DNA from: an uncultured Bacteroides sp.
Lineage (GTDB): Bacteria; Bacteroidota; Bacteroidia; Bacteroidales; Bacteroidaceae
Assembly (NCBI RefSeq): GCF_963675905.1
Contig: NZ_OY780936.1
Coordinates: forward strand, 1 to 64,000
Length of the DNA: 64,000 bases
Direction: 5' to 3'
Below the pieces are notes generated by a model that worked only from the letters and a program-made list of their open reading frames with translations, was not told the origin of the DNA and did not search any database. Positions 20,457-46,670 of the stretch are shown piece after piece (within the stretch, counting starts at the first letter, position 1; each line of letters opens with the position of its first letter). Both the position numbers and the translations under genes were made by a program.

Positions 20457-20627
20457 TATTTTCTTTTCCCTTGACGGAAAAGAAACAAAAGGTCAAGGCT
20501 GCATTTTTTTTGCTAAAATCGGGAGGCTTGTATCGGAAGGTGCTGAAACTCGCTTCGCTCAGACAACAGCCCCTTCTTTTCGCTACAAACCTCTCGATTT
20601 CTTCACGCAAAAAAAATGAGGCCAGTC
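20457..20627 (+). repeat. Hairpin element, type A copy 1
   Basis: A 171-bp copy. The outer arm CTTTTCCCTTGACGGAAAAG folds on itself and its CTTGAC part can also pair with GTCAAG downstream. Inner stems are a T8/A8 pair, then ATCGGGAGG with CCTCTCGAT, and GAAGGTGCTG with CAGCCCCTTC around a conserved loop holding CTCGCTTCGCTC. It ends GAGGCCAGTC. It directly follows the manC stop. A low-complexity tail with GCTTCGCTCG motifs continues to about 20735. Confidence 0.9.
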
Positions 20628-20737
20628 TACGAGGTTCCTGAGCGTGCTGCGGTTTTGGACCAATTAGCTTTGCTTCGCTCGCTTGTAACTTCGTGACGGT
20701 TTTATTGTAGTATATATTATTCTTTTAATATAAGTAA

Positions 20738-20767
20738 AAGGCCCCTCATCACTGAGAGGCTTTTTTT
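20738..20767. terminator. Bidirectional terminator 3' of the truncated VirE gene
   Basis: The imperfect stem GGCCCCTC / GAGAGGC is flanked by an A run on the left and T7 on the right. It lies just beyond the minus-strand VirE-like stop codon. A related copy at 41607-41672 shares the flanking sequence. Confidence 0.65.
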
Positions 20768-20769
20768 GT

Positions 20770-21339
20770 TTATTCCTCTTTCAGCTTCTGCATAATCTGT
20801 GCGTAGAGCTGTTCATAGTTTACCGGGCTTTCGTTGTCGATCTGTTTTGTTGCTTCGAAATAAACGAAAGGTTCGCAACATTCCTCTTGGCGCAAGCTGG
20901 TGGCGTAAATTACAGAGGGCACACGTTTGCCTTTTTTTGTGTTTCCATACATCTCTTTGTAACATTTAGCCTCATGATGAATGGGGTATTCCAAGTCGGT
21001 GTTGTGAACCATTACATACAAGAGAGGTGGTTTAATTTCTTCGCCGTACGTGCCGATTGGTTTCTCTGAGTAATATTCCCTAAGCTCGGGTGGGAGGATG
21101 CTACGTATAAACGTTGTCTTTCCAGAGGATTGCTTGCCATAAATAAGTGGTACGAGGGTATTGCACTGTTTGCTGTAAAGTTCTGATCTTACGACACCAC
21201 ACAACCACTTGGTTAGGGTTTCGGTCCACAATTCCTGATTGGTGGTTTGCACGCGGTTAATAAAGGCTGTAAGGTGATCCGTACCGTCCCATTCAGGAAG
21301 ATTCTTGAAATAAACTTTTGGTGAACTAATGTTTCTCAT
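20770..21339 (-). CDS. Stand-alone VirE-type P-loop ATPase domain (truncated relative)
   Basis: 189 residues. It begins at the region Y-F-K-N-L-P-E-W-D-G-T-D, which lies mid-protein in full-length VirE proteins such as the one at 27863. It has a Walker A motif, G-K-Q-S-S-G-K-T-T, followed by F-I-R-S-I-L-P-P. The middle is remodelled (N-T-D-L-E-Y, Y-A-T-S-L-R-Q-E-E) and it ends Y-E-Q-L-Y-A-Q-I-M-Q-K-L, matching the larger protein. There is no N-terminal VirE_N or primase-like part and no C-terminal extension. It is either a shortened functional variant or a decayed copy. The frame is open, which favours some constraint. The upstream region shares GATAAAAAACGGCATTTTT with the promoter side of the full-length gene. 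Confidence 0.65.
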   Translation of the reverse strand: MRNISSPKVYFKNLPEWDGTDHLTAFINRVQTTNQELWTETLTKWLCGVVRSELYSKQCNTLVPLIYGKQSSGKTTFIRSILPPELREYYSEKPIGTYGEEIKPPLLYVMVHNTDLEYPIHHEAKCYKEMYGNTKKGKRVPSVIYATSLRQEECCEPFVYFEATKQIDNESPVNYEQLYAQIMQKLKEE

Positions 21340-21452
21340 TTTTTATGTGTTTTAATTACGAATGCAAAGAAACAGGAATTGTTCCTGATAAAAAACGGCA
21401 TTTTTAGTTTTCTTCTAAAGCGTTATTTATCTGTGAGTTATAGCTGAAATAT

Positions 21453-21640
21453 CTTTTATTTTCCCTTGACGGAAAAAAAAGAGGCCGGTCTTTCTGGTCG
21501 CTCGGCTGCGCCATCGCTCGGGTGGGGTTGTGGAATGGGTAGCTGTTGCTTCGCTTGGCTTTAGGGATGGGCTCGGCTTCGCCATCGTTGCCTTTGCTTG
21601 TAAACGTCTCAAATACTGTTTTTCCTGATAAATAAATAGT
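21453..21640 (+). repeat. Internally deleted type A hairpin element plus tail
   Basis: The left arm CCCTTGACGGAAAA joins directly to AAAAGAGGCCGGTC, so the whole central hairpin is missing while both outer ends remain. A GCTTCGCTCG-type tail follows to about 21640. The rest of 21340-21702 is the VirE-fragment upstream region and an AT-rich gap with no gene. Confidence 0.75.
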
Positions 21641-21702
21641 AAACACCTTATGTCAGAATTTAAAATCAATATTTTACTAAATTCTACGCCTTGTCAATAG
21701 TA

Positions 21703-23037
21703 TTACAGCAGACTTGTCATATAGGTTGGTACTAATATGGTGTCTGCATCCTTAGCCAAATCTTTTGTGTAAATCAGGTATTTCCATAGTATGCGATTTG
21801 AGTACTTTTTGTAGAACTCATCCAGCGACTTGTGTGTAGAGTATCCAGATGATTTTACTTCTATCGGGCATATCTTATTATTTTTAGATAACAAGAAATC
21901 AATCTCATAATAGTGCTTCTCATCTCTTTGCCAAGTGTGGTAGAATAATCTGTTACCTTTTGCTATAAGCATTTGTGCAATAAGGTTTTCATATACATAT
22001 CCAAGATTAGCAGACAGTTTATTGTTCAGTAACTTCTCGTATATTATGTTCTCGGTATAGTCCTTGTCCCAAAAAGCCAATGTTATAAATAATCCTATGT
22101 CAGCTATAAATAGTTTGAATTTATCGAAGTTGGAATTCAGAGGCATACCAACATTGGGATCATCTGCATGAAAAGCGAAGTTTACAGTTTTACTATCTTC
22201 AACGCTTTTAAGTATTTCGGTTAGCTTATCTTCTTCAACCTTTCCTAGTACAGAAAATGGTACATATCTATTGGCATTTCTAGAAAGAGCAGAAGGAATG
22301 GACATGAATATTTTAGAAGCACGTCCACTCGGATCTATTTTAAGAAAGTCATCTTCGTATAGTCTGATAATTTTTCTTTTGACTTCATCCACTTTCTGCA
22401 TATTATTTGTGTCAAGATATTCATTTACAGCCTGTGGCATTCCTCCTACAAGCATATAGAGACGAAAATCTCTTGCAACATTACGATGTGCAGCTCCCAA
22501 AGGTGCTTTTTTCTCCCAGAATTTTTCAAGAAGAGGAATTGTTGCAGTATCACCGAGCGTCCATCTGAATTCTTCGTAGTCCAAAGGGTGCATTTGCAGA
22601 CGGTCTTCCTCACTCGGAATGGTTATGTCTTTTGTATGTTTCTTTATACTGATAAGCGAACCTGTTTCTATGTAGTCATAACGGCCGTCCTGTACTAAAT
22701 ATTTTATTGCTTGTCTGGCAAGAGGACAGTTCTGCACTTCATCGAATATGATAACAGATTTTCTTTGAGTCAGTGTTTTGTGAAACGCTTGTTGAAGACG
22801 AAGAAATAAAAAATCAAGATCCATCAGGTCATCGAACATTGATTTTATGTCGTTACTGACTTTATTGAAATCGATAATTATATACGAATCATATTCATTA
22901 CGCGCAAACTCTTCTACAATGGTAGATTTACCAATGCGTCGAGCGCCTTCTATAAGAAGGGCAGACTTACCATTGTTTTCATTCTTCCAGCGAAGAATAT
23001 CCTGATATATTTTACGTTTAAAGATTCTTTTTCCCAT
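21703..23037 (-). CDS. AAA ATPase with DUF4143-like C-terminal domain
   Basis: 444 residues from the ATG at 23037; an upstream ATG at 23085 would place the promoter inside the gene. Walker A is I-E-G-A-R-R-I-G-K-S-T and Walker B is V-I-I-F-D-E-V-Q-N-C. The C-terminus has Y-E-I-D-F-L-L then P-I-E-V-K-S, a complete D...ExK nuclease-like signature. A -7 box, TATATTTG on the minus strand, lies at 23056-23063. Members of this family are abundant and multi-copy in Bacteroidetes and have no settled function. Related genes lie at 33024, 37906, 39910 and 44780. Confidence 0.85.
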   Translation of the reverse strand: MGKRIFKRKIYQDILRWKNENNGKSALLIEGARRIGKSTIVEEFARNEYDSYIIIDFNKVSNDIKSMFDDLMDLDFLFLRLQQAFHKTLTQRKSVIIFDEVQNCPLARQAIKYLVQDGRYDYIETGSLISIKKHTKDITIPSEEDRLQMHPLDYEEFRWTLGDTATIPLLEKFWEKKAPLGAAHRNVARDFRLYMLVGGMPQAVNEYLDTNNMQKVDEVKRKIIRLYEDDFLKIDPSGRASKIFMSIPSALSRNANRYVPFSVLGKVEEDKLTEILKSVEDSKTVNFAFHADDPNVGMPLNSNFDKFKLFIADIGLFITLAFWDKDYTENIIYEKLLNNKLSANLGYVYENLIAQMLIAKGNRLFYHTWQRDEKHYYEIDFLLSKNNKICPIEVKSSGYSTHKSLDEFYKKYSNRILWKYLIYTKDLAKDADTILVPTYMTSLL

Positions 23038-23055
23038 AACATCTGGATTATGCTG

Positions 23056-23232: not shown

Positions 23233-23234
23233 CG

Positions 23235-24559: not shown

Positions 24560-24733
24560 TCTTTGTTCTTTTGTCTTGACACAAAAGAACCAAAAGGTCA
24601 AGGCTGCATTTTTTTTGCTAAAATCGAGAGGCTTGTATCGGAAGGTGGTGAAACTCGCTTCGCTCAAACAGCACCCCCTTCTTTTCGCTACAATCCTCCC
24701 GATTTCTTCACGCAAAAAAAAAGAGGCCGGTCT
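24560..24733 (+). repeat. Hairpin element, type A copy 2
   Basis: The arm reads CTTTTGTCTTGACACAAAAG, with T/A at the variable stem position where other copies have C/G or G/C. Stems GAAGGTGGTG / CACCCCCTTC and the T8/A9 outer pair are present. It ends GAGGCCGGTC and is followed by the tandem array. Confidence 0.9.
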
Positions 24734-24773
24734 TTCTGGTTTTGGAGCGGGCTACGGTTTTGGACCAATTAGC

Positions 24774-25030
24774 TTTGCTTCGCTCGCTTGACACTTCGTT
24801 TCGGTTCTGGTCGCTCGGCTTCGCCTTCGTTCCTTTGCTTCGCTCGCTTGACACTTCGTTTCGGTTCTGGTCGCTCGGCTTCGCCTTCGTTCCTTTGCTT
24901 CGCTCGCTTGACACTTCGTTTCGGTTCTGGTCGCTCGGCTTCGCCTTCGTTCCTTTGCTTCGCTCGCTTGACACTTCGTTTCGGTTCTGGTCGCTCGGCT
25001 TCGCCTTCGTTCCTTTGCTTCGCTCGGCTG
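24774..25030. repeat. Four perfect 60-bp tandem repeats in an element tail
   Basis: The 60-bp unit spanning 24781-24840 is repeated without change at 24841, 24901 and 24961, and a partial copy follows. It contains CGCTCGCTTG, ACTTCGTTTCGGT and GCTCGGCTTCGCC, the same short hairpin words found in every element tail. Open frames across it encode 20-residue repeats on both strands and are by-products of the period being a multiple of 3. Confidence 0.92.
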
Positions 25031-25054
25031 TTGGGGTGGGCTCGGCTTATCATA

Positions 25055-26569
25055 TCACTTTAATAATGAGGCAATAAATAATGTGAAGTCAGTAATATCC
25101 CCATCAACACTTCCTTTTTCTATGGTTTTCATGTATTCTTGGCGTCTTTCAACAGGGACTATAGTCCAATTGTATCCGCCGGATATTAACATGGCATTCA
25201 TCAAAAAACGTCCCATCCTGCCATTGCCATCCATGTAAGGGTGAATATATACAAATATAAAATGACCTAATACTGCACGGACACGTGCATCCTGTTCCTT
25301 TTTAAGCAATTCGAAAAGGACAGGCATTGCATCTCGTACTGCTTCAGGGTTTAGAGGTGTATGCAGTGAACCACGAATATAAACTTGCCCAGTACGATAT
25401 CCAGCTAAATCGGTTGGCTTTAAGATTCCGGCAGTAACACTTGGAGCAAAAAGTTCTCGATACCATGTCCTATGATCGTTATCTATGACCTCTCCTGGAT
25501 TTTCACCTTCCAATATGCGTTTTATACTACCTTTTACCGATTCAAAAGCCTGATAGTAACCACGGGCGGCCATTGCATTTTTCTGTTCCGCATCATTGGA
25601 ATTGGCATCCGGTTGCCAATTTCCACTTTTTACTTTTTCGATAAGGTAGTCCGTTACCCGATAGCCTTCAATTGAAAGTGAGTGGTATGCATCCAATTTG
25701 TATTGAGCCTCAATATTCTTCATGCAAGCATTTACATCAGTATATACATTATTTGTCTCAAGGAAATTAGCTATCACAGCTTCACGCATATTACTCCACA
25801 TAAGTTTTAATCGGGCAACATAAGGTGATGTTATACGAGAATAGGAGATGGTTGTTTTATCTTTAAATGGATCTTCTTCACGAATATCGTATCCAAGACT
25901 TTTCATTGTGTCAATAATTTCATCGGCCGCTACCGTATGTCCTATATTGCGGAAAGCTCCGGCAAGTCGTCCTGCCTTTGTGCTTTGTCCTTTCTCTAAC
26001 AGAATATTCAATAAATCTGAGGCATCTGGAATTAACAACAAGCAAGTACGTGCAGTAATGCTATCTAACTTGAAAAAATCAGGGCTGCATTCTATTAACG
26101 CCTCCGGCAAAGAATAAAGATTTAAGCCAAATCGTGGTTCTGTATAAATTGAATTGGCTAAAGATACTTTAATATCCAGTAGTGACGTCTTATGCATAAG
26201 TTTTACTACATTATTCGCTCCTTGGGGTGAGCGGATAATAACCTGAGCTGGAACAACCCAATTGCCACTATATATGGATAAAGAATGATCCGGTGTTAAA
26301 CACCAATTTTTGCCAAAACGTGAATTGCAATACTCAGTAATGAAATACCAGTACGAAGTGTACCAATTCGTTGTGTCACCGGGAGCGCTGTCTGGACGGG
26401 CAGAAATATACCATCCTTTCATCACCTCTTGAAGAAAGCCATTGGAAACCAATCTCTTCATGTGAGTTCTTGAGATTTTTGAAGACTTTACGATTGCAAA
26501 ACCACTCTCGTTCTGCAAATTTTGTAATACCTTCAAAGATTCCGCTAGTTTTTCCTGAATTGCTGCCAT
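25055..26569 (-). CDS. Fic family protein with an AbiEi-like N-terminal region
   Basis: 504 residues. The Fic core motif H-P-Y-M-D-G-N-G-R-M-G-R lies near residue 446, complete for AMP-transfer or related chemistry on a protein target. Upstream, near residue 300, S-L-S-I-E-G matches the S/T-xxx-E-G/N self-inhibitory helix motif seen in class II Fic proteins. The first 230 or so residues start with a winged-helix-like segment (I-S-R-T-H-M-K-R-L-V) and G-W-Y-I-S-A-R-P, resembling AbiEi-type antitoxin/regulator domains; that match is by eye. A promoter lies at 26720-26750. It stands alone between hairpin elements. Confidence 0.85.
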   Translation of the reverse strand: MAAIQEKLAESLKVLQNLQNESGFAIVKSSKISRTHMKRLVSNGFLQEVMKGWYISARPDSAPGDTTNWYTSYWYFITEYCNSRFGKNWCLTPDHSLSIYSGNWVVPAQVIIRSPQGANNVVKLMHKTSLLDIKVSLANSIYTEPRFGLNLYSLPEALIECSPDFFKLDSITARTCLLLIPDASDLLNILLEKGQSTKAGRLAGAFRNIGHTVAADEIIDTMKSLGYDIREEDPFKDKTTISYSRITSPYVARLKLMWSNMREAVIANFLETNNVYTDVNACMKNIEAQYKLDAYHSLSIEGYRVTDYLIEKVKSGNWQPDANSNDAEQKNAMAARGYYQAFESVKGSIKRILEGENPGEVIDNDHRTWYRELFAPSVTAGILKPTDLAGYRTGQVYIRGSLHTPLNPEAVRDAMPVLFELLKKEQDARVRAVLGHFIFVYIHPYMDGNGRMGRFLMNAMLISGGYNWTIVPVERRQEYMKTIEKGSVDGDITDFTLFIASLLK

Positions 26570-26964: not shown

Positions 26965-27135
26965 GGACTGGCCTCATGAATTTTACGTTAAGAAATCAGG
27001 GAGTGGGGAGCGTTAAGAAGGGGGTGCTGTTTGAGCGCAGCGAGTTTCACCCCCTTTAGCTCCACGCTCCCTGATTTTAGTAAAATTCGTGCAGCCTTGA
27101 TTTTTTGTTTCTTTTGCATCAAGGCAAAAGAAAAG
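26965..27135 (-). repeat. Hairpin element, type B copy 1, with tandem arms
   Basis: 171 bp read on the minus strand. Plus-strand order is GACTGGCCTCAT, outer stem GAATTTTAC / GTAAAATTC, stem AAATCAGGGAG / CTCCCTGATTT, stem AAGGGGGTG / CACCCCCTT, a conserved loop with GAGCGCAGCGAG, then the arm. After it, to about 27200, two degenerate extra arms (CTCAAGGCAAAAGAAAA and GTCAAGCTAAAAGAAAA) are repeated in tandem. Confidence 0.9.
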
Positions 27136-30552: not shown

Positions 30553-30732
30553 GTCCTTTTCTTTGTTCTTTTCTCTTGATAGAAAAGAACCAAAAGATCA
30601 AGGCTGCATTTTTTTTGCTAAAATCGAGAGGCTTGTAGCGGAAGGGGGTGAAACTCGCTTCGCTCAGACAGCACCCCCTTCTTTTCGCTACAATCCTCCC
30701 GATTTCTTCACGCAAAAAAAATGAGGCCGGTC
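30553..30732 (+). repeat. Hairpin element, type A copy 3
   Basis: The arm is CTTTTCTCTTGATAGAAAAG, with the downstream partner ATCAAG matching its CTTGAT loop. Stems GAAGGGGGTG / CACCCCCTTC and TTGTAGCG / CGCTACAA are intact. A tail with CTTGACACTTCG and GGCTGCGCC words runs to about 30895. Confidence 0.9.
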
Positions 30733-31763: not shown

Positions 31764-31938
31764 CTGGCCTTTTCTTTTGCCTTGATGCAAAAGAAACAAA
31801 AAATCAAGGCTGCATTTTTTTTGCTAAAATTGGGAGGCTTGTATCGGAAGGGGGTGAAACTCGCTTCGCTCAGACAGCACCCCCTTCTTTTCGCTACAAT
31901 CCTCCCGATTTCTTCACGCAAAAAAAATGAGGCCGGTC
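31764..31938 (+). repeat. Hairpin element, type A copy 4
   Basis: It begins CTGGCC directly after the toxin-remnant stop. The arm is CTTTTGCCTTGATGCAAAAG with ATCAAG as second partner. The right-hand stem has CCTCCCGAT opposite ATTGGGAGG (one wobble). A tail of GCTTCGCTCG, GTCACTTCGTGAC and GGCTTCGCC words runs to about 32110. Confidence 0.9.
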
Positions 31939-32159
31939 TTTCTGGTTTTGGGACGGGCTGCGGTTTTGGGCCAATTAGCTTTGCTTCGCTCGCTTGTCAC
32001 TTCGTGACGGTTTTTTTTCGCTCGGCTTCGCCTTTGCTGCCGTTGCTTCGCTCGGCTTTGCCATCGCTCGGGTGGGGTTGTGGACCAATTAGCCGTTGCT
32101 TCGCTCGGCTGTTACTTCGTGATTTTTTTTTGGTGAGTTTGTATTGTTATCGACTGAAG

Positions 32160-32231
32160 ATGAGCTTTTTAAATGTACGGAAAATGCTAGAATGGTTAAA
32201 GGGTAAGTTTAAAAAAAAATCCTCTGAATAA
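32160..32231 (+). CDS. Possible 23-residue cationic amphipathic peptide (left copy)
   Basis: The frame encodes M-S-F-L-N-V-R-K-M-L-E-W-L-K-G-K-F followed by K-K-K-S-S-E. Hydrophobic and basic residues alternate as in an amphipathic helix. It is closed by a hairpin terminator at 32215-32245 and is unchanged in the second copy at 34696. The promoter is not clear. It could be a small membrane-active peptide or a gene end. Confidence 0.35.
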   Translation: MSFLNVRKMLEWLKGKFKKKSSE

Positions 32232-32245
32232 ATCAAAGGATTTTT
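32215..32245. terminator. Bidirectional terminator between convergent small frames (left copy)
   Basis: AAAAATCCT pairs with AGGATTTTT around a 13-nt loop; A and T runs on both sides allow termination in either direction. Confidence 0.65.
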
Positions 32246-32270
32246 AAATAAATGAAAGATATTTTGCGGA

Positions 32271-32501
32271 TTAGTTCGCTTCTTCTTTGTTCTTTTTTGC
32301 AGCCTTTTGATAAAGTTCTTCTTGTAACATCATAAACTCTGCTATAAGTTCAATTGGTATACATGCATCATTCTCGTCAACGGCATTGCTCATCAAATGT
32401 TGAATTTTATCTGAGAGAGAGAGGTATTGCTGTATTTCCGGTTCAAGATGACTTAACGAACTTAATATTATTTCTTTTTTCACTGACTTTGTGTAATCCA
32501 T
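32271..32501 (-). CDS. Hypothetical 76-residue protein (left copy)
   Basis: The ATG at 32501 is chosen because a minus-strand -7 box TATCTTTG lies at 32533-32540; longer frames start inside the element. The protein is helical and acidic in the middle (S-H-L-E-P-E-I-Q-Q-Y-L, D-E-N-D-A-C-I-P-I-E-L) with a charged lysine-rich end. No family is recognised. A second copy at 34807 differs by one residue (M to I). Confidence 0.6.
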   Translation of the reverse strand: MDYTKSVKKEIILSSLSHLEPEIQQYLSLSDKIQHLMSNAVDENDACIPIELIAEFMMLQEELYQKAAKKNKEEAN

Positions 32502-32797
32502 TTTTTTTTGTTTTTGTTTATTTAATTTTCGGCAAAGATATAATTTTTTTAAAATTAAGCTATAAAAATAGATAAATAATATTGATGTTACAAAGATGCC
32601 AGAACTTCGTATAAATTGCCAACCGAGTGGAATAACGGCAAATGAGTGATGGCGCAGCCAAGCACATCTCCAAAGCGAGCGAAGCAAAGGCGCAGCCGAG
32701 CAAAGTGGCAAGCAGAGTGCAGCAACGAATGGCGAAGCCAGCCGAGCGAAGCAACGGCTATATGCTCCAAAACAGCAGTCCGCTCAGGAACCAGCAA

Positions 32798-32968
32798 GAC
32801 CGGCCTCATGAATTTTACGTTAAGAAATCAGGGTGTGGGGAGCGTTAAGAAGGGGGTGCTGTTTGAGCGCAGCGAGTTTCAGCCCCTTTAGCTCCACGCT
32901 CCCTGATTTTAGTAAAATTCGTGCAGCCTTGATTTTTTTGTTTCTTTTTGATCAAGCAAAAAGAAAAG
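32798..32968 (-). repeat. Hairpin element, type B copy 2
   Basis: 171 bp on the minus strand. The arm on the plus strand ends TTTTTGATCAAGCAAAAAG, that is CTTTTTG / CAAAAAG at the variable positions. Outer stem GAATTTTAC / GTAAAATTC and stem AAATCAGGG / CCCTGATTT are present. The arm ends just before the ATPase promoter. Confidence 0.9.
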
Positions 32969-33023: not shown

Positions 33024-34346
33024 ATGAAATTCTACAACCGAGAAGAAGAACTGAGCGAGCTGAAAAGAATTCAGTCACTGGCATTTGAAGAGAACTCCCG
33101 TCTTACAGTTGTTACAGGCAGACGCCGCATTGGTAAGACTAGTCTGATAGTCAAAGCAACCGAAGGAACGCCAACCATATATCTCTTCGTAGGCCGCAAG
33201 AATGAAACAGCTCTTGTTAATGAATTTTTACCCATTATAAATCAGTCTCTTGCCACTTATGTTCCGGAAGGAATACAAACATTCCGTTCGCTCTTTCAAT
33301 ATATCATGGAGGTGGGTACGCATCAATCTTTCAATCTTATAATTGATGAGTTTCAGGAATTCTACAATATCAATAAGTCTGTATTCAGCGATATGCAGAA
33401 TATATGGGATCAATACCGTAAACGCTCAAAGGTGAATCTTATTGTAAGCGGCTCCATCTACTCCCTTATGCACAAAATATTTCAGGATGAAAAAGAGCCT
33501 TTATTTGGGCGGGCAGACAATATCCTGAAGCTCTATCCATTTAAGTTGAGTGTTCTGAAGGAAATAATGACCGATTACCTCCCTACGTATACCAACGACG
33601 ATTTGCTGGCCCTGTACACCTTTACCGGAGGAGTTCCCAAGTATATAGAGCTATTCTGTGATAACCGTGCTCTTACGGTGGGGGAGATGATACAGTTTAT
33701 GGTGCGCGACAATTCTCCCTTTACTGATGAAGGAAAAAATTTGCTTATAGAAGAGTTTGGGAAAAATTATGCAACCTATTTCTCTATTCTTGGTGCAATG
33801 GCAAGTTCCAGAAATACCCAGTCGGAAATTGAAACCGCATTAGGAGGAATCAGTATAGGTGGTTATCTGAAAAGGCTGGAAGAAGATTACAACGTAATAA
33901 CCCGCATACGTCCCATCCTCTCAAAGGAGGGTACACAGGCAGTACGTTTTGTTATAAAAGACAATTTCCTGCGGTTCTGGTTTAAATACATTGATAGAAA
34001 CCGTTCGTATATAGAGATTAAAAACTTCGCCTCCCTACGGAAACTGATAGAAGATGATTACCCCACCTATACGGGGAAAGTGCTGGAAGCCTATTTCAAA
34101 CAAAAATTCGCAGAAAGCTTTGAGTTTCGCGAAATAGGATCATGGTGGGAAACAAAAGGTAATCAATACGAGCTGGACATTGTGGCCCTGAAAACAGAAA
34201 AAAACAGTGCCGTTGTAGCAGAAGTTAAACGACAGCGCAAGGAATTTAAACCGGAATTATTGGAAAGCAAAATAAAGCATCTCAGAGAAAAAGTAATGCC
34301 CAGGTATAAAATTGAAGCAATATGTCTTTCTATGGATGATATGTAG
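33024..34346 (+). CDS. ATPase_2 / DUF234-like AAA ATPase
   Basis: 440 residues. The start F-Y-N-R-E-E-E-L-S-E-L is typical of the archaeal-type ATPase_2 family. Walker A is V-T-G-R-R-R-I-G-K-T-S and Walker B is L-I-I-D-E-F-Q-E-F. F-T-G-G-V-P-K-Y near residue 205 marks the lid. The C-terminal DUF234-like region has Y-E-L-D-I-V-A-L and V-A-E-V-K-R-Q, an intact D...ExK nuclease-like signature. It is a single gene with its own promoter, flanked by type B on the left and type A on the right and by the two large direct repeats. Confidence 0.87.
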   Translation: MKFYNREEELSELKRIQSLAFEENSRLTVVTGRRRIGKTSLIVKATEGTPTIYLFVGRKNETALVNEFLPIINQSLATYVPEGIQTFRSLFQYIMEVGTHQSFNLIIDEFQEFYNINKSVFSDMQNIWDQYRKRSKVNLIVSGSIYSLMHKIFQDEKEPLFGRADNILKLYPFKLSVLKEIMTDYLPTYTNDDLLALYTFTGGVPKYIELFCDNRALTVGEMIQFMVRDNSPFTDEGKNLLIEEFGKNYATYFSILGAMASSRNTQSEIETALGGISIGGYLKRLEEDYNVITRIRPILSKEGTQAVRFVIKDNFLRFWFKYIDRNRSYIEIKNFASLRKLIEDDYPTYTGKVLEAYFKQKFAESFEFREIGSWWETKGNQYELDIVALKTEKNSAVVAEVKRQRKEFKPELLESKIKHLREKVMPRYKIEAICLSMDDM

Positions 34347-34356: not shown

Positions 34357-34527
34357 TTTTTCTTTTCCCTTGACGGAAAAGAAACAAAAGGTCAAGGCTG
34401 CATTTTTTTTGCTAAAATCGGGAGGCTTGTATCGGAAGGGGGTGAAACTCGCTTCGCTCAAACAGCACCCCCTTCTTTTCGCTACAATCCTCCCGATTTC
34501 TTCACGCAAAAAAAATGAGGCCGGTCT
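34357..34527 (+). repeat. Hairpin element, type A copy 5
   Basis: 171 bp starting 10 bp after the ATPase stop. The arm is CTTTTCCCTTGACGGAAAAG; stems ATCGGGAGG / CCTCCCGAT and GAAGGGGGTG / CACCCCCTTC are perfect. A tail follows to about 34645. Confidence 0.92.
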
Positions 34528-34695
34528 TTCTGGTTCCTGAGCGGGATACGGTTTTGGATCAATTAGCTTTGCTTCGCTCGCTTGTCACTTCGTGACGGTT
34601 CTTTTTTTGGCTTGGCTGCGCCATTGCTGCTGTTGCTTCGCTTGGCTGTTACTTCGTGACTTTTTTTGGTGAGTTTGTATTGTTATCGACTGAAG

Positions 34696-34767
34696 ATGAG
34701 CTTTTTAAATGTACGGAAAATGCTAGAATGGTTAAAGGGTAAGTTTAAAAAAAAATCCTCTGAATAA
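34696..34767 (+). CDS. Possible 23-residue cationic amphipathic peptide (right copy)
   Basis: Identical in protein sequence to the frame at 32160. The terminator at 34751-34781 is also conserved. Confidence 0.35.
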   Translation: MSFLNVRKMLEWLKGKFKKKSSE

Positions 34768-34781
34768 ATCAAAGGATTTTT
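34751..34781. terminator. Bidirectional terminator (right copy)
   Basis: The same AAAAATCCT / AGGATTTTT stem as the left copy. Confidence 0.65.
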
Positions 34782-34806
34782 AAATAAATGAAAGATATTT
34801 TGCGGA

Positions 34807-35037
34807 TTAGTTCGCTTCTTCTTTGTTCTTTTTTGCAGCCTTTTGATAAAGTTCTTCTTGTAACATAATAAACTCTGCTATAAGTTCAATTGGTATACAT
34901 GCATCATTCTCGTCAACGGCATTGCTCATCAAATGTTGAATTTTATCTGAGAGAGAGAGGTATTGCTGTATTTCCGGTTCAAGATGACTTAACGAACTTA
35001 ATATTATTTCTTTTTTCACTGACTTTGTGTAATCCAT
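34807..35037 (-). CDS. Hypothetical 76-residue protein (right copy)
   Basis: Differs from the left copy by one residue (F-I-M-L-Q instead of F-M-M-L-Q). The -7 box TATCTTTG is conserved at 35069-35076. Function unknown. Confidence 0.6.
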   Translation of the reverse strand: MDYTKSVKKEIILSSLSHLEPEIQQYLSLSDKIQHLMSNAVDENDACIPIELIAEFIMLQEELYQKAAKKNKEEAN

Positions 35038-35333
35038 TTTTTTTTTTTTTTGTTTATTTAATTTTCGGCAAAGATATAATTTTTTTAAAATTAAGCTATA
35101 AAAATAGATAAATAATATTGATGTTACAAAGATGCCAGAACTTCGTATAAATTGCCAACCGAGTGGAATAACGGCAAATGAGTGATGGCGCAGCCAAGCA
35201 CATCTCCAAAGCGAGCGAAGCAAAGGCGCAGCCGAGCAAAGTGGCAAGCAGAGTGCAGCAACGAATGGCGAAGCCAGCCGAGCGAAGCAACGGCTATATG
35301 CTCCAAAACAGCAGCCCGCTCAGGAACCATCAA

Positions 35334-35504
35334 GACCGGCCTCATGAATTTTACGTTAAGAAATCAGGGTGTGGGGAGCGTTAAGAAGGGGGTGCTGTTT
35401 GAGCGCAGCGAGTTTCACCCCCTTTAGCTCCACGCTCCCTGATTTTAGTAAAATTCGTGCAGCCTTGACCTTTTGTTTCTTTTCCGTCAAGGGAAAAGAA
35501 AAGA
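35334..35504 (-). repeat. Hairpin element, type B copy 3
   Basis: 171 bp on the minus strand. The arm on the plus strand ends CTTTTCCGTCAAGGGAAAAG, the C/G variant, with GTCAAG matched by CTTGAC before it. The GH5 promoter -7 box begins 6 bp after it. Confidence 0.92.
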
Positions 35505-35555: not shown

Positions 35556-37529
35556 ATGAAGAAAATTACATTGTTATTTACAGGCATTGTGCTAACTGTA
35601 TTAATCTCGGTTGTAAAGGCTCAAACTCCGTTTTCCAGAGGTGTAAACCTTACTGAATGGTTTCAAACATCTTCTGCTCACAATATTCAGTTCTCTAAAT
35701 ATACAAAGAAGGATTTTGTTAATATCAAAAGTCTGGGATGTGACGTAATCCGACTTCCTATTAATCTGTTTTACATGACCAACGGAAATCCTGATTATAC
35801 AGTGGATCCTTTGTTTTATGACTTTTTGGATCAGGCGGTAAACTGGGCTGAAGAGTTACATATTTACCTGATTCTGGATAATCATTCCACCGATGATATT
35901 GCCAGCAAGAACCCTAATCTGGAGACTGCGCTTACAAAGGTGTGGACTCAAATGGCTTTGCATTACAAGGATCGCTCTTCTTATATTTTATACGAGGTTT
36001 TGAATGAGCCCCATGGATTGTCGACAGCTGCTTGGGGAGCTATTCAGCAAAAAGCAATTACTGCCATCAGGAATGTTGATACCAAACATACTATTGTGGT
36101 TGGCCCCTCGGGTTGGAATACTTATAATGAGTTGAATCAGTTGCCATACTATACTGATACGAACTTATTGTATACTTTCCATTTTTACGATCCGTTTGTC
36201 TTTACGCATCAGGGTGCCAGCTGGCCATCTCCGTCTATGACTTCCCTCGCCAATGTGCCTTTTCCATATAATGCATCGGCTATGCCAACTGTTCCTGCCG
36301 ATCTTGCCGGTACGTGGGTGGCCGGTTCGCTCAAAAATTATTCGAATGAAGGTACGGTTGCTAAAGTTAAGTCGCTGATTGATATTGCTGTGGCTTTTAA
36401 AACGGCACGTAATGTAAATCTGTATTGTGGTGAGTTTGGTGTGTATATTCCAAATAGCAATAATACCGACAGGGCGTATTGGTATGGACAGGTGAGCAGT
36501 TATCTACAGTCTAAAGGTATTGTCTGGACTACATGGGATTATCAGGGAGGTTTTGGATTGTTTAACAAGGGCTCCAATCAGCAATTCAATTATGATGTGA
36601 ATGTGCCGTTGCTCAATGCTCTTGGTCTGTCTGTTCCTCCGCAGCAGGTTTTTACGCAGAAACCCGACTCGGTGGGGTTTAATATCTACTCTGATTATAC
36701 GGGAGAAAATATGCTTGAATCGGGTGGTGGCAGTGGGGCTGCAACCGATTTTTATTCCGATAGCAAGCCGAACAACGGGAAGTATTGCCTGAGCTGGAGT
36801 GGTAGCAATCGATATGGATCTGTGGGGGTGGATTTTGTGCCCGACAAGGATTTGTCGAAGCTGAGAGTGCAAAATTATGCTTTGAGTATGCTTGTCAGAG
36901 GAAATACTCCGGGTACTAAATTTGACCTTCGGTTTATGGATACTAAGAAGGATGCTTCGGACCATCCGTGGCGCATGAATTTCACAATAGACGAAAATAC
37001 CGTGAAATGGGATGGTAAATGGCATAAGGTGTTTATTCCACTTACCCGTTTTGTAGATGGTGGTTCGTGGGACAATGCATGGTTTAATCCAATAGGGGCA
37101 TTTGACTGGAGCGCAACGGATAGGTTTGAAATTGTGGCCGAACAAATGAGTATGGCGGGTAAATCACTGTGGTTTGATAATATTCAGATTAGCAATATTG
37201 ATAGTGCGCAAGTTTATGAATCGTCCGTTTTTACTGATATCAGGAAAATGCAGTCGGATAATTTACTTCTGAGAGTTTTTCCTAACCCTGTGCAAAACTC
37301 AACTGCGATAAGCTATACTCTTTCTGATGATGAAAAAGTGGATGTTGGCATTTACAACCTGAACGGACAAAAAGTAAGATCGCTTTTAAGTGCCCGGCAG
37401 TCATCGGGCAATCATCTGTTAGTCTGGAATGCAGATTCGGATGGCGGAGGCCGACTTTCTAAAGGACTTTATTTTTGCCGGGTTATAATTTCGGGGCAAA
37501 TTGCTGTAGCGAAGGTTATTGTTTTGTAA
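35556..37529 (+). CDS. GH5 family glycosidase (endoglucanase-like) with type IX secretion tail
   Basis: 657 residues. A signal peptide (M-K-K-I-T-L-L-F-T-G-I-V-L, cleavage near A-Q-T) precedes a GH5 catalytic domain (residues about 25-350). The acid/base glutamate is in V-L-N-E-P-H near residue 150 and the nucleophile in C-G-E-F-G-V near residue 292. A carbohydrate-binding-like beta domain follows (about 370-550). The last 85 or so residues, F-P-N-P-V-Q-N-S-T then Y-N-L-N-G-Q-K-V and G-L-Y-F-C-R, are a T9SS type A sorting domain. Endo-beta-glucanase or mannanase activity is likely. The stop codon touches a type A element. Typical gut Bacteroides enzymes use lipoprotein export instead. Confidence 0.88.
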   Translation: MKKITLLFTGIVLTVLISVVKAQTPFSRGVNLTEWFQTSSAHNIQFSKYTKKDFVNIKSLGCDVIRLPINLFYMTNGNPDYTVDPLFYDFLDQAVNWAEELHIYLILDNHSTDDIASKNPNLETALTKVWTQMALHYKDRSSYILYEVLNEPHGLSTAAWGAIQQKAITAIRNVDTKHTIVVGPSGWNTYNELNQLPYYTDTNLLYTFHFYDPFVFTHQGASWPSPSMTSLANVPFPYNASAMPTVPADLAGTWVAGSLKNYSNEGTVAKVKSLIDIAVAFKTARNVNLYCGEFGVYIPNSNNTDRAYWYGQVSSYLQSKGIVWTTWDYQGGFGLFNKGSNQQFNYDVNVPLLNALGLSVPPQQVFTQKPDSVGFNIYSDYTGENMLESGGGSGAATDFYSDSKPNNGKYCLSWSGSNRYGSVGVDFVPDKDLSKLRVQNYALSMLVRGNTPGTKFDLRFMDTKKDASDHPWRMNFTIDENTVKWDGKWHKVFIPLTRFVDGGSWDNAWFNPIGAFDWSATDRFEIVAEQMSMAGKSLWFDNIQISNIDSAQVYESSVFTDIRKMQSDNLLLRVFPNPVQNSTAISYTLSDDEKVDVGIYNLNGQKVRSLLSARQSSGNHLLVWNADSDGGGRLSKGLYFCRVIISGQIAVAKVIVL

Positions 37530-37704
37530 CTGGCTTTTTCTTTTGGCTTGACCCAAAAGAAACAAAAGGTCAAGGCTGCATTTTTTTTGCTAAAATTGGG
37601 AGGCTTGTAGCGGAAGGGGGTGAAACTCGCTTCGCTCAAACAGCACCCCCTTCTTCTCGCTACATTCCTCCCAATTTCTTCACGCAAAAAAAATGAGGCC
37701 GGTC
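37530..37704 (+). repeat. Hairpin element, type A copy 6
   Basis: Begins CTGGC directly after the GH5 TAA. The arm is CTTTTGGCTTGACCCAAAAG (GG/CC variant). Stems ATTGGGAGG / CCTCCCAAT and GAAGGGGGTG / CACCCCCTTC: the T-A pair replaces the C-G pair of other copies on both sides. A tail with GTCACTTCGTGAC repeats runs to 37905. Confidence 0.92.
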
Positions 37705-39273: not shown

Positions 39274-39444
39274 GCTTTTTCTTTTTGCTTGATCAAAAAG
39301 AAACAAAAAATCAAGGCTGCATTTTTTTTGCTAAAATCGAGAGGCTTGTATCGGAAGGGGGTGAAACTCGCTTCGCTCAAACAGCACCCCCTTCTTTTCG
39401 CTACAATCCTCCCGATTTCTTCACGCAAAAAAAATGAGGCCGGT
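39274..39444 (+). repeat. Hairpin element, type A copy 7
   Basis: 171 bp. The arm is CTTTTTGCTTGATCAAAAAG, with ATCAAG as second partner. Central stem GAAGGGGGTG / CACCCCCTTC is present. Confidence 0.92.
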
Positions 39445-39756: not shown

Positions 39757-39927
39757 GACCGGCCTCATGAATTTTACGTTAAGAAATCAGGGTGTGGGGA
39801 GCGTTAAGAAGGGGGTGCTGTTTGAGCGCAGCGAGTTTCACCCCCTTTAGCTCCACGCTCCCTGATTTTAGTAAAATTCGTGCAGCCTTGATTTTTTGTT
39901 TCTTTTGCATCAAGGCAAAAGAAAAGA
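39757..39927 (-). repeat. Hairpin element, type B copy 4
   Basis: 171 bp on the minus strand, arm CTTTTGCCTTGATGCAAAAG. The arm contains the last codons and the TGA stop of the minus-strand ATPase gene (39910-39912). Confidence 0.92.
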
Positions 39928-41175
39928 AGAAAGCCATTTCCAAACCGGAATAATTTCTATTGTTTTATCATTTTCCTGAATGGTTGATTCTTCATCCCAG
40001 GTTATGATCTCCATTTTTTTTGTAGCGTATACTTCAGAAAGTTTAATCAGAGCTTTTATCTCTCTTTGTTTTGTGGCATCGTCTGCAATACTGTAAGATA
40101 CCTGGATGGCTCTTCTTTCGGTTGGTATAAAAAAGTCTACTTCTATGTTTTTGTTGTAGAAAAACAGTTCATCGCCATAGTGCTTTTTCAGTGTGATGGC
40201 TACTATATTTTCAAGCAGTTTGGTCTCGGGATCAAAAAGAAAGTTGTTTAGCAATCCGTTATCAAAGAAATATCTCTTTTTGAATGTTTCCTTGTCACTC
40301 AGCTTATCAGAGTAATTGGATATGCCAAACACTAAGTAGGCATCTTCCAGAAGCTGAAGATAATCTACCAGGGTATTGCGGGAAATGGTTGTTCCGGTTG
40401 AGTCAATGATGTTTTTTATTCTGGCCAGTGATGAGGGTTGCATAACGCTTTCTGCCAACTTCTTGACAAGAACTTTGATAGCATTTTCGTTTCTGATATC
40501 ATTTCGTGAAATAACGTCGCCAAGAAGTATCTTCTGATAAAGTGAGTTCAGCCAGCTTCGTTTATCTTTCAATGGAAATGATTCCGCAAAACCGCCAAAA
40601 TAGAAATAATCATGGAATGACTTCACTACTTGCAGACGAATGTTGCCATACTCCCAGTTACGATCTAAAGTGATTTGATTAAAGGTGAGGTATTCACTGA
40701 ATGAAAAGGGGAACACTTCCTTTGCTATGAATCGGCCGCCAAGGGTGGTATGCATCTCTTTGCTGAGCATCTTTGCATTACTGCCGGTAATGAATACTCT
40801 GTATTTTGAATCGGCCAGACGGCGGGCAAACTTTTCCCAGCCATCTACATTCTGAATCTCATCCAGAAAGATAATGGGTTTACCATCGAACATTTCATTA
40901 TAGCTTTCAATAAACAGGTTGAGTTCTTCCACTTTGACTGACGAAATTCGCTCGTCCTCAAAATTGATATACAGGATGTCTTCAATGGATGCTTGTTTGG
41001 TTTTAATCAACGTTTGTATATGCTGATATAACAAATAGGATTTACCTGCACGACGAAGTCCCACAAACACATAGTTGGCTGTTTCCTCCAGCTCAAGTGG
41101 TCTTTCTATCAGCTCGATATTCAGAATTTCGTTCTGTTTCTCAAGGATCAGACTTTTTATTACTCGTTTTTCCAT
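39910..41175 (-). CDS. AAA ATPase with DUF4143-like C-terminal domain
   Basis: 421 residues. Walker A is V-G-L-R-R-A-G-K-S-Y and Walker B is I-I-F-L-D-E-I-Q-N-V. I-T-G-S-N-A-K-M-L-S and F-P-F-S-F-S-E-Y follow. The C-terminus has I-E-V-D-F-F-I then A-I-Q-V-S, so the nuclease-like ExK is degenerate. The final residues S-F-L-L-P and the stop are encoded by the hairpin arm of the type B element, so the element has supplied the gene's end. A -7 box TATATTTG (minus strand) lies at about 41198-41205. Confidence 0.87.
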   Translation of the reverse strand: MEKRVIKSLILEKQNEILNIELIERPLELEETANYVFVGLRRAGKSYLLYQHIQTLIKTKQASIEDILYINFEDERISSVKVEELNLFIESYNEMFDGKPIIFLDEIQNVDGWEKFARRLADSKYRVFITGSNAKMLSKEMHTTLGGRFIAKEVFPFSFSEYLTFNQITLDRNWEYGNIRLQVVKSFHDYFYFGGFAESFPLKDKRSWLNSLYQKILLGDVISRNDIRNENAIKVLVKKLAESVMQPSSLARIKNIIDSTGTTISRNTLVDYLQLLEDAYLVFGISNYSDKLSDKETFKKRYFFDNGLLNNFLFDPETKLLENIVAITLKKHYGDELFFYNKNIEVDFFIPTERRAIQVSYSIADDATKQREIKALIKLSEVYATKKMEIITWDEESTIQENDKTIEIIPVWKWLSSFLLP

Positions 41176-41237: not shown

Positions 41238-41408
41238 CTTTTTCTTTTGGCTTGACCCAAAAGAAACAAAAGGTCAAGGCTGCATTTTTTTTGCTAAAAT
41301 TGGGAGGCTTGTAGCGGAAGGGGGTGAAACTCGCTTCGCTCAAACAGCACCCCCTTCTTCTCGCTACAATCCTCCCAATTTCTTTACGCAAAAAAAATGA
41401 GGCCGGTT
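41238..41408 (+). repeat. Hairpin element, type A copy 8
   Basis: 171 bp, arm CTTTTGGCTTGACCCAAAAG; stems ATTGGGAGG / CCTCCCAAT, TTGTAGCG / CGCTACAA and GAAGGGGGTG / CACCCCCTTC are all perfect. A tail with GTCACTTCGTGAC follows to about 41600. Confidence 0.93.
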
Positions 41409-42998: not shown

Positions 42999-43169
42999 GA
43001 CCGGCCTCATGAATTTTACGTTAAGAAATCAGGGTGTGGGGAGCGTTAAGAAGGGGCTGCTGTCTGAGCGAAGCGAGTTTCAGACCCTTTAGCTCCACGC
43101 TCCCTGATTTTAGTAAAATTCGTGCAGCCTTGATTTTTTGTTTCTTTTGCATCAAGGCAAAAGAAAAGG
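42999..43169 (-). repeat. Hairpin element, type B copy 5
   Basis: 171 bp on the minus strand. The inner stem is changed on both sides compared with other B copies (GGGGCTG against CAGACCC). Arm CTTTTGCCTTGATGCAAAAG on the minus strand; one degenerate extra arm (TCAAAGCAAAAGAAAA) follows at about 43178. Confidence 0.9.
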
Positions 43170-44015: not shown

Positions 44016-44059
44016 TCAAAACTTTAATCTAAAGTGTGTACACAAATATAAAATATGAA

Positions 44060-44623: not shown

Positions 44624-44662
44624 CCCAAAAGAAAAGGACAGTTGCATTCAAAACAAAAAGAA
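44607..44662 (+). repeat. Solo hairpin arms without the element body
   Basis: CTTTTAGCTTAACCCAAAAG is a degenerate arm; AAGGACAGTTGCATTCAAAA and an AAAAAGAAAA end resemble the tandem arms beside type B copies 1 and 5. The central hairpin is missing. Confidence 0.6.
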
Positions 44663-44673
44663 AATATAGTTTA

Positions 44674-44743
44674 AAGTATAATTAAAACCTTTATATAAAA
44701 ATTGAAAAGTTTTAGTTATACTTAAAACTTTTGCTTATATTTG
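44674..44743 (+). promoter_or_regulatory. Promoter with 15-bp inverted repeat upstream of ATPase gene
   Basis: AAGTATAATTAAAAC (44674-44688) and GTTTTAGTTATACTT (44709-44723) are inverted repeats with one mismatch. The right arm covers the -33 region of a promoter whose -7 box TATATTTG is at 44736-44743. This looks like an operator or an AT-rich hairpin. Confidence 0.55.
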
Positions 44744-44779
44744 TTGTTGTTTCAATTATACATAAGATCTTTTTTGAAG

Positions 44780-45988
44780 ATGAAAATCCCTAAGGTTATT
44801 AAAAAGAGAGACGGCTACATAGCGCGTATTGTGCCGTTTATGAGAAAACCGCTGATTAAAGTATTGACGGGGCAACGGCGTGTGGGGAAAAGCTATCTGT
44901 TGTTTCAGCTGATGGAACAAGTGCAGAACGAGGAACCTGATGCCCATATTATCTATATTAACCGGGAGGACATGGAGTTCGACTTTATGCGAACGGCTTT
45001 GGATTTGAATAATTATATTCTTGCTAACCGGAAGGAGGGAGTACGCAATTTTATCTTTATTGATGAGATTCAGGATATAGCGGAGTTTGAAAAGGCTCTT
45101 CGTTCTTTGTTACTGGACGAGAGCAATGATATCTATATTACGGGAAGCAACGCCAGACTGCTCTCGAGTGAACTGGCTACTTACTTAAGTGGCAGGTATG
45201 TAGAGTTTAAAGTATACAGTTTGTCGTACACTGAATTTCTACAGTTTCATGAACTGGAAAATAATGCCGACAGCTATGATTTGTATGCCCGATATGGAGG
45301 CTTGCCTTATCTGATTAATCTGCAACTGAATGATGATGTGGTCAATGAATATCTGAAGAGTATCTATTCAACCATCGTGTTCAGGGATGTGGTGAGCCGT
45401 TACAGTCTTCGGAACACTGCATTTCTGGAAAAGCTTATTCAGTTTATTTCGGAAAATATCGGTTCGTTGTTTTCTGCAAAGAATATAAGTGATTATCTTA
45501 AATCACAGCATACTCAGATTTCTGTTAACCAAATACAGAATTATGTGGAATACCTCACGAATGCATTTCTCATTCACAGGGTGGGGCGGTATGATTTGGT
45601 TGGTAAACGTTTCTTTGAGATTGGTGAGAAGTATTATTTCGAGAATATGGGAATCAGAAATGTGATTATCGGTTATCGCTTACAAGACAGGGCGAAGATT
45701 CTTGAGAATATTGTTTATAACCATCTTTTGTATCGGGGGTATACTATTAAAGTAGGTATTTCTGCTTCTTCGGAGATTGATTTTGTTTGTGAAAAAGGTT
45801 CCGAGAAGCTTTATGTACAGGTGACTTTAAGACTGGATAGCGAAACAACGATTGAAAGGGAATTTGGGAATTTGCTTAAAATTCAGGATAACTATCCCAA
45901 AATAGTAGTTAGTGAGGATGATTTTCGCGGAAACAGTTATGAAGGAATAAGGCACGTGTTTATTCGGGATTTTTTAATGACTTATTGA
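44780..45988 (+). CDS. AAA ATPase with DUF4143-like C-terminal domain
   Basis: 402 residues from the ATG at 44780, which follows the promoter; the ATG-like start at 44741 overlaps the -7 box. Walker A is T-G-Q-R-R-V-G-K-S-Y and Walker B is F-I-F-I-D-E-I-Q-D-I. I-T-G-S-N-A-R-L-L and Y-S-L-S-Y-T-E-F follow. The C-terminus has S-E-I-D-F-V-C then Y-V-Q-V-T, so the nuclease-like ExK is replaced, as in the gene at 37906. Confidence 0.87.
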   Translation: MKIPKVIKKRDGYIARIVPFMRKPLIKVLTGQRRVGKSYLLFQLMEQVQNEEPDAHIIYINREDMEFDFMRTALDLNNYILANRKEGVRNFIFIDEIQDIAEFEKALRSLLLDESNDIYITGSNARLLSSELATYLSGRYVEFKVYSLSYTEFLQFHELENNADSYDLYARYGGLPYLINLQLNDDVVNEYLKSIYSTIVFRDVVSRYSLRNTAFLEKLIQFISENIGSLFSAKNISDYLKSQHTQISVNQIQNYVEYLTNAFLIHRVGRYDLVGKRFFEIGEKYYFENMGIRNVIIGYRLQDRAKILENIVYNHLLYRGYTIKVGISASSEIDFVCEKGSEKLYVQVTLRLDSETTIEREFGNLLKIQDNYPKIVVSEDDFRGNSYEGIRHVFIRDFLMTY

Positions 45989-45997
45989 CGGGGTTTT

Positions 45998-46190
45998 TCT
46001 TTTCTCTTGATTGCAAATACCTTTTCTTTTGCCTTGATGCAAAAGAAACAAAAAATCAAGGCTGCATTTTTTTTGCTAAAATCGTGAGGCTTGTATCGGA
46101 AGGTGCTGAAACTCGCTTCGCTCAAACAGCAGCCCCTTCTTTTCGCTACAATCCTCCCAATTTTTTCACGCAAAAAAAATGAGGCCGGTC
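45998..46190 (+). repeat. Hairpin element, type A copy 9, with an extra arm
   Basis: A partial arm (TTTTCTTTTCTCTTGATTGC) begins 8 bp after the ATPase stop, then the full 170-bp copy starts at 46021 with arm CTTTTGCCTTGATGCAAAAG. The inner stem is GAAGGTGCTG / CAGCCCCTTC as in copy 1. A tail runs to about 46257. Confidence 0.9.
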
Positions 46191-46257
46191 CTTCTTTTCG
46201 CTCGGCTTCGCCATCGCTCGGTGGGGTTTTGGACTAATTAACTTTGCTTCGCTTGGC

Positions 46258-46365
46258 TTGAAACTATCCTTTGCCGGATACAGAAAAGAATAAAGAGATT
46301 TTATTGGTAAACAGATTTGTTTATCAGAATTATCAACACACTTTGGTGGACATAAAAATTGGTTC
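46258..46365 (+). pseudogene. Remnant of a toxin-antitoxin promoter region
   Basis: 46258-46337 matches 30898-30972 (shared AGAGATTTTATTGGTAAACA), including the full TAAACA-GATT-TGTTTA palindrome at 46308-46323. It then joins ACACTTTGGTGG, which lies inside the toxin remnant at 31576. The antitoxin gene between them is missing. 46366-46501 is element-tail sequence. Confidence 0.75.
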
Positions 46366-46501
46366 AAGCGAAGGTGTAGCCAAGCTGAAAAAGAACCGAG
46401 CCGATGGCGAAGCCGAGCCAGAAAAAGAAACGCCACAAAGTGGCAAGCGAGCGAAGCAAAGCTAATTGGTCCACAACCGCAGCTCGCTCAGGAACCAGCA
46501 A

Positions 46502-46670
46502 GACCGGCCTCATGAATTTTACGTTAAGAAATAAGGGAGTGTGGAGCGTTAAAAAGAAAAAGCTGTTTGAGCGCAGCGAGTTCTTTTTCTTTAGCTCTAC
46601 ATTCCCTTATTTTAGTAAAATTCGTGCAGCCTTGACCTTTTGTTTCTTTTCCGTCAAGGGAAAAGAAAAG
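46502..46670 (-). repeat. Hairpin element, type B copy 6 (stem-swapped variant)
   Basis: Here AAAGAAAAAG (46553-46562) pairs with CTTTTTCTTT (46583-46592), where other copies have a G run paired with a C run. AAATAAGGGA (46539-46548) pairs with TCCCTTATTT (46603-46612), where others have AAATCAGGG / CCCTGATTT. The loop word GAGCGCAGCGAG and outer stem GAATTTTAC / GTAAAATTC are unchanged. The arm is followed by GGCCAG and the GH3 stop codon. Confidence 0.93.

Follow-up and report, generated by a model that had tools for sequence, protein, structure and literature searches.

Integron attC sites are folded imperfect hairpins that stand beside cassettes of one gene each; these are often defence-like, and their order is shuffled. 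Repetitive extragenic palindromic (REP) sequences and bacterial interspersed mosaic elements (BIMEs) are dispersed intergenic palindromic repeats that are presumably processed as folded single strands of DNA. A Bacteroidetes subclass of the REP-associated tyrosine transposases (RAYTs) is flanked by atypical structures, according to PMC6006769, and PMC2864571 describes the STAXI motif as a repeated pseudoknot, with a proposed function in the form of either RNA or single-stranded DNA. The present analysis concerns an intergenic repeat of an uncultured Bacteroides sp. (assembly GCF_963675905.1), found in the first 64,000 nucleotides of contig NZ_OY780936.1 (positions 1 to 64,000 of the forward strand, hereafter the window). 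As judged from its patterns of sequence change, the element is a real folding repeat whose fold is maintained.

Each copy comprises a head of 39 nt followed by a rod, which is an imperfect hairpin. The head consensus is in the main TTTTCTTTT NN CTTGAY NN AAAAGAAACAAAA RRTCAAG, in which a 10-bp stem encloses the loop CTTGAY and the complementary RTCAAG lies six bases 3' of the stem. This arrangement fits the topology of an H-type pseudoknot, in which all pairs may fit simultaneously, although one end pair may need to open; with such a topology, the stem and loop pairings need not be mutually exclusive. The purine preceding RTCAAG, a position that the search pattern restricted to purines, was identical to the letter paired with the first N in all 42 rows (of 118 heads) where that letter is a purine, which may possibly reflect a third-strand contact.

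The pairing of the head was retained while its letters changed. In a non-redundant set of 202 heads, Watson-Crick pairing was present at the four variable positions in 199, 194, 192 and 183 cases (768 of 808 cells), against 111, 90, 67 and 94 expected from independent letters. The 40 remaining cells comprised 2 G-T, 20 A-C and 18 other combinations, and 14 of the 20 A-C cells were in the outermost pair. In the set of 118 heads (65 distinct), drawn from named-species loci, double-sided changes occupied 101 cells, whereas column shuffles gave 35.2; the covariation score was 0.212 versus a maximum of 0.058 with the partners slid. Two of five covariation measures were not above the shuffles, namely double-change pairs (4 versus 4.0) and further pair types (8 versus 10.3), the latter owing to the missing wobble types. 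In the scan behind the 118 heads, the last loop pair was restricted to C/T and A/G; once both of its letters were allowed to vary, 142 of the 150 rows listed were Watson-Crick and none of them G-T (hand count). The letters CTTGA and TCAAG were fixed in all aligned heads, both being required by the search pattern.

Heads also differed between orthologous sites. Twelve of 25 orthologous-site pairs, not all of them independent since some share an element, had heads that differed by 2 to 6 letters. Full pairing was present in both genomes for nine of these, and the other three all involved the copy at 4243969 of G149, which was changed on the 3' side alone. In the three changed, fully paired cases found among the window genome, G121 and G149, the rods were 91-93% alike. 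Letters changed in blocks, a pattern more readily accounted for by copies exchanging sequence or by templated copying than by serial compensation. The sequence-only reading had proposed, from stems that change on both sides together, that a folded form is selected. For the head, maintained pairing is borne out by the covariation relative to shuffles and by the orthologous sites; the rods, in contrast, showed few double changes within the genus and tolerated many mismatches, so that the strong pairing signal lies in the head.

The rod begins with GGCTGCA and finishes with TGAGGCC, and is about 127 nt long in the window genome and 120-190 nt in most other genomes. Rods carry recurring asymmetric bulges, with GCTAAAA opposite TTTTTAACGC. 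One type A copy folded as RNA gave -72 kcal/mol (z -7.7) and one type B copy folded as DNA gave z -6.0; in either case 0 of 200 shuffles were equally stable. When rods of up to 325 nt were folded, 79 of 84 were closed at their ends, a number biased upward by the choice of the rod end according to its closing motif. In 21 rods less than 80% alike, the mean z was -3.2 versus -0.29 in 19 flank controls, with the exceptions of three rods of positive z and one control at z -4.1. For 21 diverse rods aligned plainly with MAFFT, RNAalifold was unsuccessful, and the case for rod conservation therefore rests on per-sequence folds. The complementary strand of the rod was the more stable in 72 of 95 cases with RNA parameters and in 82 of 95 with DNA parameters (flank control, 48 of 88), which suggests that the folded strand, if single, is more likely the rod-to-head one.

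Two diverged rod types, A and B, were distinguished; one G121 copy was left untyped. A direct-repeat search recovered nine type A copies, all on the forward strand, and six type B copies, all on the reverse strand, at the positions reported earlier. The window copies span 164-166 bases from head start to rod end:

20459..20623, forward strand, type A copy 1 (head 20459-20497, rod 20497-20623)
24564..24728, forward strand, type A copy 2 (head begins TGTTCTTTTGT)
26970..27134, reverse strand, type B copy 1
30564..30728, forward strand, type A copy 3
31770..31934, forward strand, type A copy 4
32802..32967, reverse strand, type B copy 2 (head longer by one base)
34358..34522, forward strand, type A copy 5 (fold z -7.7)
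35338..35502, reverse strand, type B copy 3
37536..37700, forward strand, type A copy 6 (at most 7 bases from the stop of the cellulase gene; five head letters differ at the orthologous B. luti site)
39277..39441, forward strand, type A copy 7
39761..39925, reverse strand, type B copy 4
41240..41404, forward strand, type A copy 8 (head CTTGAC..GTCAAG; orthologous B. luti site CTTGAA..TTCAAG)
43003..43167, reverse strand, type B copy 5
46022..46186, forward strand, type A copy 9
46506..46669, reverse strand, type B copy 6 (directly after a GH3 gene; A-rich/T-rich stem variant)

Every copy in the earlier list of fifteen is real, but the list was incomplete, as the whole genome has 18. The remaining three occur at 4149328-4152848 of the 4,166,832-base contig, and all 18 are located either between 4149328 and the contig end or within 1-46673; if the contig is circular, they form a single cluster of about 64 kb. 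Genome-wide, 11 of 11 A copies were on the forward strand and 7 of 7 B copies on the reverse. The arm variants listed by the sequence-only reading were all found among the copies, and the replacement of a G-run/C-run by an A-run/T-run stem that it noted in B copy 6 is genuine, being present in 5 of 22 B copies (three genomes). With up to two mismatches, the loop word CTCGCTTCGCTC occurred 42 times in the window versus 2.2 expected from shuffles, many of the 42 matches falling in low-complexity tails.

Units of 60 bases of the TTTGCTTCGCTCGCTTGACACTTCGTTTCGG type, arranged head to tail, follow A copy 2 at 24773-25072 and constitute a tandem growth of the low-complexity tail of the element. Elsewhere, a 300-base stretch is identical at 32125-32424 and 34661-34960 and looks like a recent unit duplication. 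It overlaps two open reading frames (ORFs) of 146 aa (32271-32711 and 34807-35247), the first of which gave no match in Pfam.

On the evidence of the head pattern, the repeat family is phylum-wide across Bacteroidota. Allowing two mismatches, the pattern was detected in 57 of 395 genomes across the phylum (30 of 170 genera), and the exact pattern in 79 of 395 class genomes (47 of 196 genera), with no match in the reversed control of either search. At least 120 stretches from named-species genomes contained the head, and the 80 that were listed were of Bacteroidota type, except for one labelled Chlorobiota and one labelled simply 'uncultured bacterium'. The distribution in the Bacteroides group was patchy (6 of 149 genomes, plus G121). 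Copies were located mostly between predicted genes, and their number varied among species. An orthologous intergenic site of a second genus was searched in 59 genomes, all of which matched the query; at the 20 junctions read, the copy number ranged from zero through one to two or more, or the heads had decayed. By hand count in eight single-contig genomes of one genus, with dnaA taken as the origin, about 16 sites lay along the replication fork, 4 against it and 2 near the terminus, several of the sites being orthologous.

No match to one A copy was found in the plasmid and phage collections; the head pattern was present in 17 stretches of IMG/VR viral contigs (L255-L271). Closely spaced tandem heads, in which one head or a truncated element directly precedes a complete one, were observed at L049 (reverse strand), G543:C2:3227129-3227262 and G635:C1:1469705-1469846, and those of G543 and G635 enclose a similar insert. 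The Rfam search advised by the sequence-only reading gave no gathering-level match on the element, either in the window (0 matches) or at 18 further loci, where only a tRNA and a nearby Flavo-1 were detected; weak matches on one stretch were far under the cut-offs. In the portions available, the literature surveyed, mainly openly readable and including PMC6006769, PMC3733652, PMC12306157 and PMC2864571, contained no description of the repeat.

The arrangement of the copies was analyzed in seven Bacteroides-group genomes, with 105 copies and 98 neighbour intervals. Of these intervals, 39 were rod-rod, 33 head-head and 26 tandem, such that tandem neighbours were scarce (binomial 4e-6). Within intervals of less than 6 kb, an ORF of at least 100 aa was present in all 26 head-head versus 16 of 36 rod-rod intervals (Fisher 9e-7), and in 18 of 23 tandem intervals. 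Neighbouring rods were more than 80% alike in 0 of 39 facing, 1 of 33 head-facing and 13 of 26 tandem pairs, while opposite-strand rod pairs in general were so in 42 of 442 cases, all in four of the seven genomes. Two diverged rod types alternate in opposed pairs, in which the heads face genes and the rods face each other over short spacers. In G543, two units were inverted whole, yet still paired one rod of each type. Moreover, eight sites common to the window genome and B. luti differed in order and kept their strand. Three gene slots of the window are bounded by heads:

33024..34346, forward strand, ATPase_2/DUF234 gene flanked by the B copy 2 and A copy 5 heads
35556..37529, forward strand, GH5 cellulase gene flanked by the B copy 3 and A copy 6 heads
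39910..41175, reverse strand, AAA_14/DUF4143 ATPase gene flanked by the B copy 4 and A copy 8 heads

The proteins encoded next to the elements were scanned with Pfam (132 of 169 phylum neighbours and 107 of 108 array neighbours). The array neighbours included 17 AAA_14 and 16 DUF4143 matches (ATPases), 6 HU-HIG, 5 NusG-like and 3 Abi_2 proteins, and 19 of the 107 matched PDC-S01 defence-candidate models. Elsewhere in the phylum, the neighbours of the element were ordinary genes. The gene families common to all seven islands include HU-HIG and an amidase, both annotated in the window, and a pair of 265/266 aa that matches polysaccharide export, as annotated from the window genome. The cluster also encloses polysaccharide export, glycosyltransferase and sugar-nucleotide genes (window 2415-20454; L009 7381-11315). 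The combination of export, glycosyltransferase and polysaccharide-synthesis enzymes points to a polysaccharide locus, probably of the capsule type. In L009, a NusG-like gene (1959-2468) is followed within 31 bases by a same-strand element, and relatives of 169/170 aa occur in six of the seven islands. An IS66-type transposase (L009:14326-16293) lies inside the polysaccharide region and does not adjoin an element.

Terminator-like sites were sought around 100 Bacteroides-group copies and 94 copies from the phylum at large; seven of the 107 array copies were omitted, as the rod end was not recognised or the flank was too short. Of the 100 copies of the Bacteroides group, 45 had such a site downstream of the rod on the same strand and 6 on the opposite strand, with 4 and 2 upstream. 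In the phylum at large the corresponding numbers were 10 and 5 of 94, with 12 upstream, which marks the terminator-like tail as a local addition. The sites noted in the window are as follows:

34582..34598, forward strand, terminator-like hairpin (GTCACTTCGTGAC) with a T-run, downstream of A copy 5 on the same strand
31994, forward strand, similar terminator-like site
37773, forward strand, similar terminator-like site
39556, forward strand, similar terminator-like site
41464, forward strand, similar terminator-like site
42922, reverse strand, similar terminator-like site

Within the element itself, the head-to-rod strand contained a terminator-like site in 0 of 100 Bacteroides-group copies and in 3 of 94 others, and the other strand in 4 of 100 and 12 of 94. 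The gene upstream of a copy was on the same strand in 89 and on the opposite strand in 77 of 185 rows, repeated loci included. The earlier suggestion that the arm folds in two exclusive ways, like an attenuator, finds no support in these two results or in the probable pseudoknot topology. An attenuator or riboswitch was likewise rejected on the internal sites and on the orientation of the upstream gene.

The explanation tentatively preferred is that of a non-coding foldback repeat, BIME-like, which bounds single-gene cassettes (many of them defence candidates), insulates them and provides homology for reshuffling; among the roles proposed for this island, insulation at the boundaries and homology for recombination have the best support. 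Each copy would constitute a cassette boundary, and in the Bacteroides group the terminator-like tail would end transcription leaving the gene slot. The copies would supply homology through which slots are exchanged by recombination, and facing rods would have to differ, since otherwise a long unstable palindrome would form. The family may have spread, and its heads may be exchanged or copied, as folded single strands via a trans-acting enzyme.

Several observations weigh against this explanation. The terminator-like tail is not phylum-wide, hence insulation cannot be the general function, and even in the Bacteroides group 55 of 100 copies are without it. The ORF counts exclude 13 of the 98 intervals, those of at least 6 kb, and derive from mechanically called ORFs. 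A strict strand-to-type rule is limited to three genomes, as opposite-strand copies more than 80% alike occur in G543, G635, G587 and G624. No spreading enzyme was found among the 132 of 169 phylum neighbours scanned, where the 25 commonest families listed had at most four members each. Finally, remnants in several genomes at the second-genus site mean that loss explains as much as insertion.

A transcribed structured RNA, with head pseudoknot and rod hairpin at message 3' ends where they would stabilise or regulate, is an unlikely alternative. In its favour, structure is conserved across the phylum, the terminator-like tail of the Bacteroides group lies on the same strand, and many heads are close to stop codons. 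However, evolving RNA helices normally show G-U pairs, in contrast to the two G-T pairs in 808 variable cells; the orientation to the upstream gene is near-random; the complementary strand folds better; and no conserved promoter-like flank was seen by eye. Slightly less probable is a passive repeat, whose arms are kept complementary by quasipalindrome correction and gene conversion without selection for the fold. The scarcity of wobble or half-changed states, the block differences between heads at orthologous sites and the decay in some species would all suit such a process, but the recurring imperfect bulges of the rod would be erased by it, and CTTGA/TCAAG is fixed in all aligned heads, albeit as the search pattern required.

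Site-specific movement of single genes by an integron-like recombinase, with the head or rod, folded as a single strand, for its substrate, is more doubtful than either. Genes do sit between heads, slots are reordered with their strand kept, defence-type cargoes are many, and truncated extra half-heads were seen by eye upstream of some Bacteroides-group copies. Nevertheless, an upstream half-head was present in only 6 of 144 copies outside that group, and homologous recombination of near-identical rods would yield the same reordering. Of the integron attC boxes RYYYAAC...GTTRRRY, the first was found in 8 of 107 copies, the second in 0 and the two in order in none. HU-HIG, amidase and polysaccharide export are the ones with an annotation among the gene families that all seven islands share, no search having been aimed at recombinases. 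Movement by a RAYT (TnpA_REP) transposase is very improbable: the two types do alternate in opposed orientation and a Bacteroidetes subclass with flanking structures has been reported (PMC6006769), but Y1_Tnp gave 0 matches in the element-bearing G000, G121 and G149 (it was present in 6 of 12 genomes searched), and 12 RAYT loci lacked head-like sequence under three loose patterns.

Bolder than the cassette-boundary explanation, and placed between the passive repeat and the integron-like system in probability, is an undescribed, phylum-wide recognition system for single-stranded DNA (or RNA). Active copying or exchange would hold the variable head letters in register, and the Bacteroides-group elements would serve as an integron-like platform without integron parts, collecting and reordering single defence or capsule-locus genes in insulated slots. 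If the element has been read correctly, Bacteroidota would possess a class of structured intergenic repeat of their own, whose very cleanly covarying head is searchable by a simple pattern and open to direct tests. In the Bacteroides group, the element would mark the seams of a variable capsule/defence region and offer a handle on cassette gain, insulation and reshuffling without an integron. With G-T intermediates nearly absent, the head would be a test case for fold selection versus palindrome-templated copying.

Among the known systems, Flavo-1 (RF01705) is also a structured element of this phylum, although its model has no gathering-level match on the repeat; the Flavo-1 match at L062:6277-6439 (42.3 bits against a cut-off of 42), about 300 bases from a copy and on the opposite strand, is a separate element. 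The STAXI motif is likewise a repeated pseudoknot but adjoins other kinds of genes, a distinction drawn from its description in PMC2864571 and not from sequence. With regard to miniature inverted-repeat transposable elements, the heads of opposed pairs are inverted, copies elsewhere stand alone or in tandem, and no target-site duplication was seen among the few junctions inspected visually. The likeness to integron arrays extends to folded imperfect hairpins beside single-gene slots, defence-like cargo and shuffled order, whereas, unlike attC, the elements occur at both slot ends and in both orientations. With REP/BIME, the element shares an intergenic palindromic nature, two types in alternating opposed orientation and presumed handling as folded single-stranded DNA. 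It differs in its length of about 165 bases, four to five times that of a REP (hairpin of 20-40), and in being clustered in one island here. The foot of the rod was GGCTGC in 102 of 107 copies, and the REP foot GT[AG]G was found in 0 of 107 (CGTC was not searched for). Membership of the REP/RAYT family was rejected on three tested features, namely foot tetranucleotide, length and Y1_Tnp gene, the alternating orientation being present. The element is not a member of that family, and in its layout it is BIME-like.

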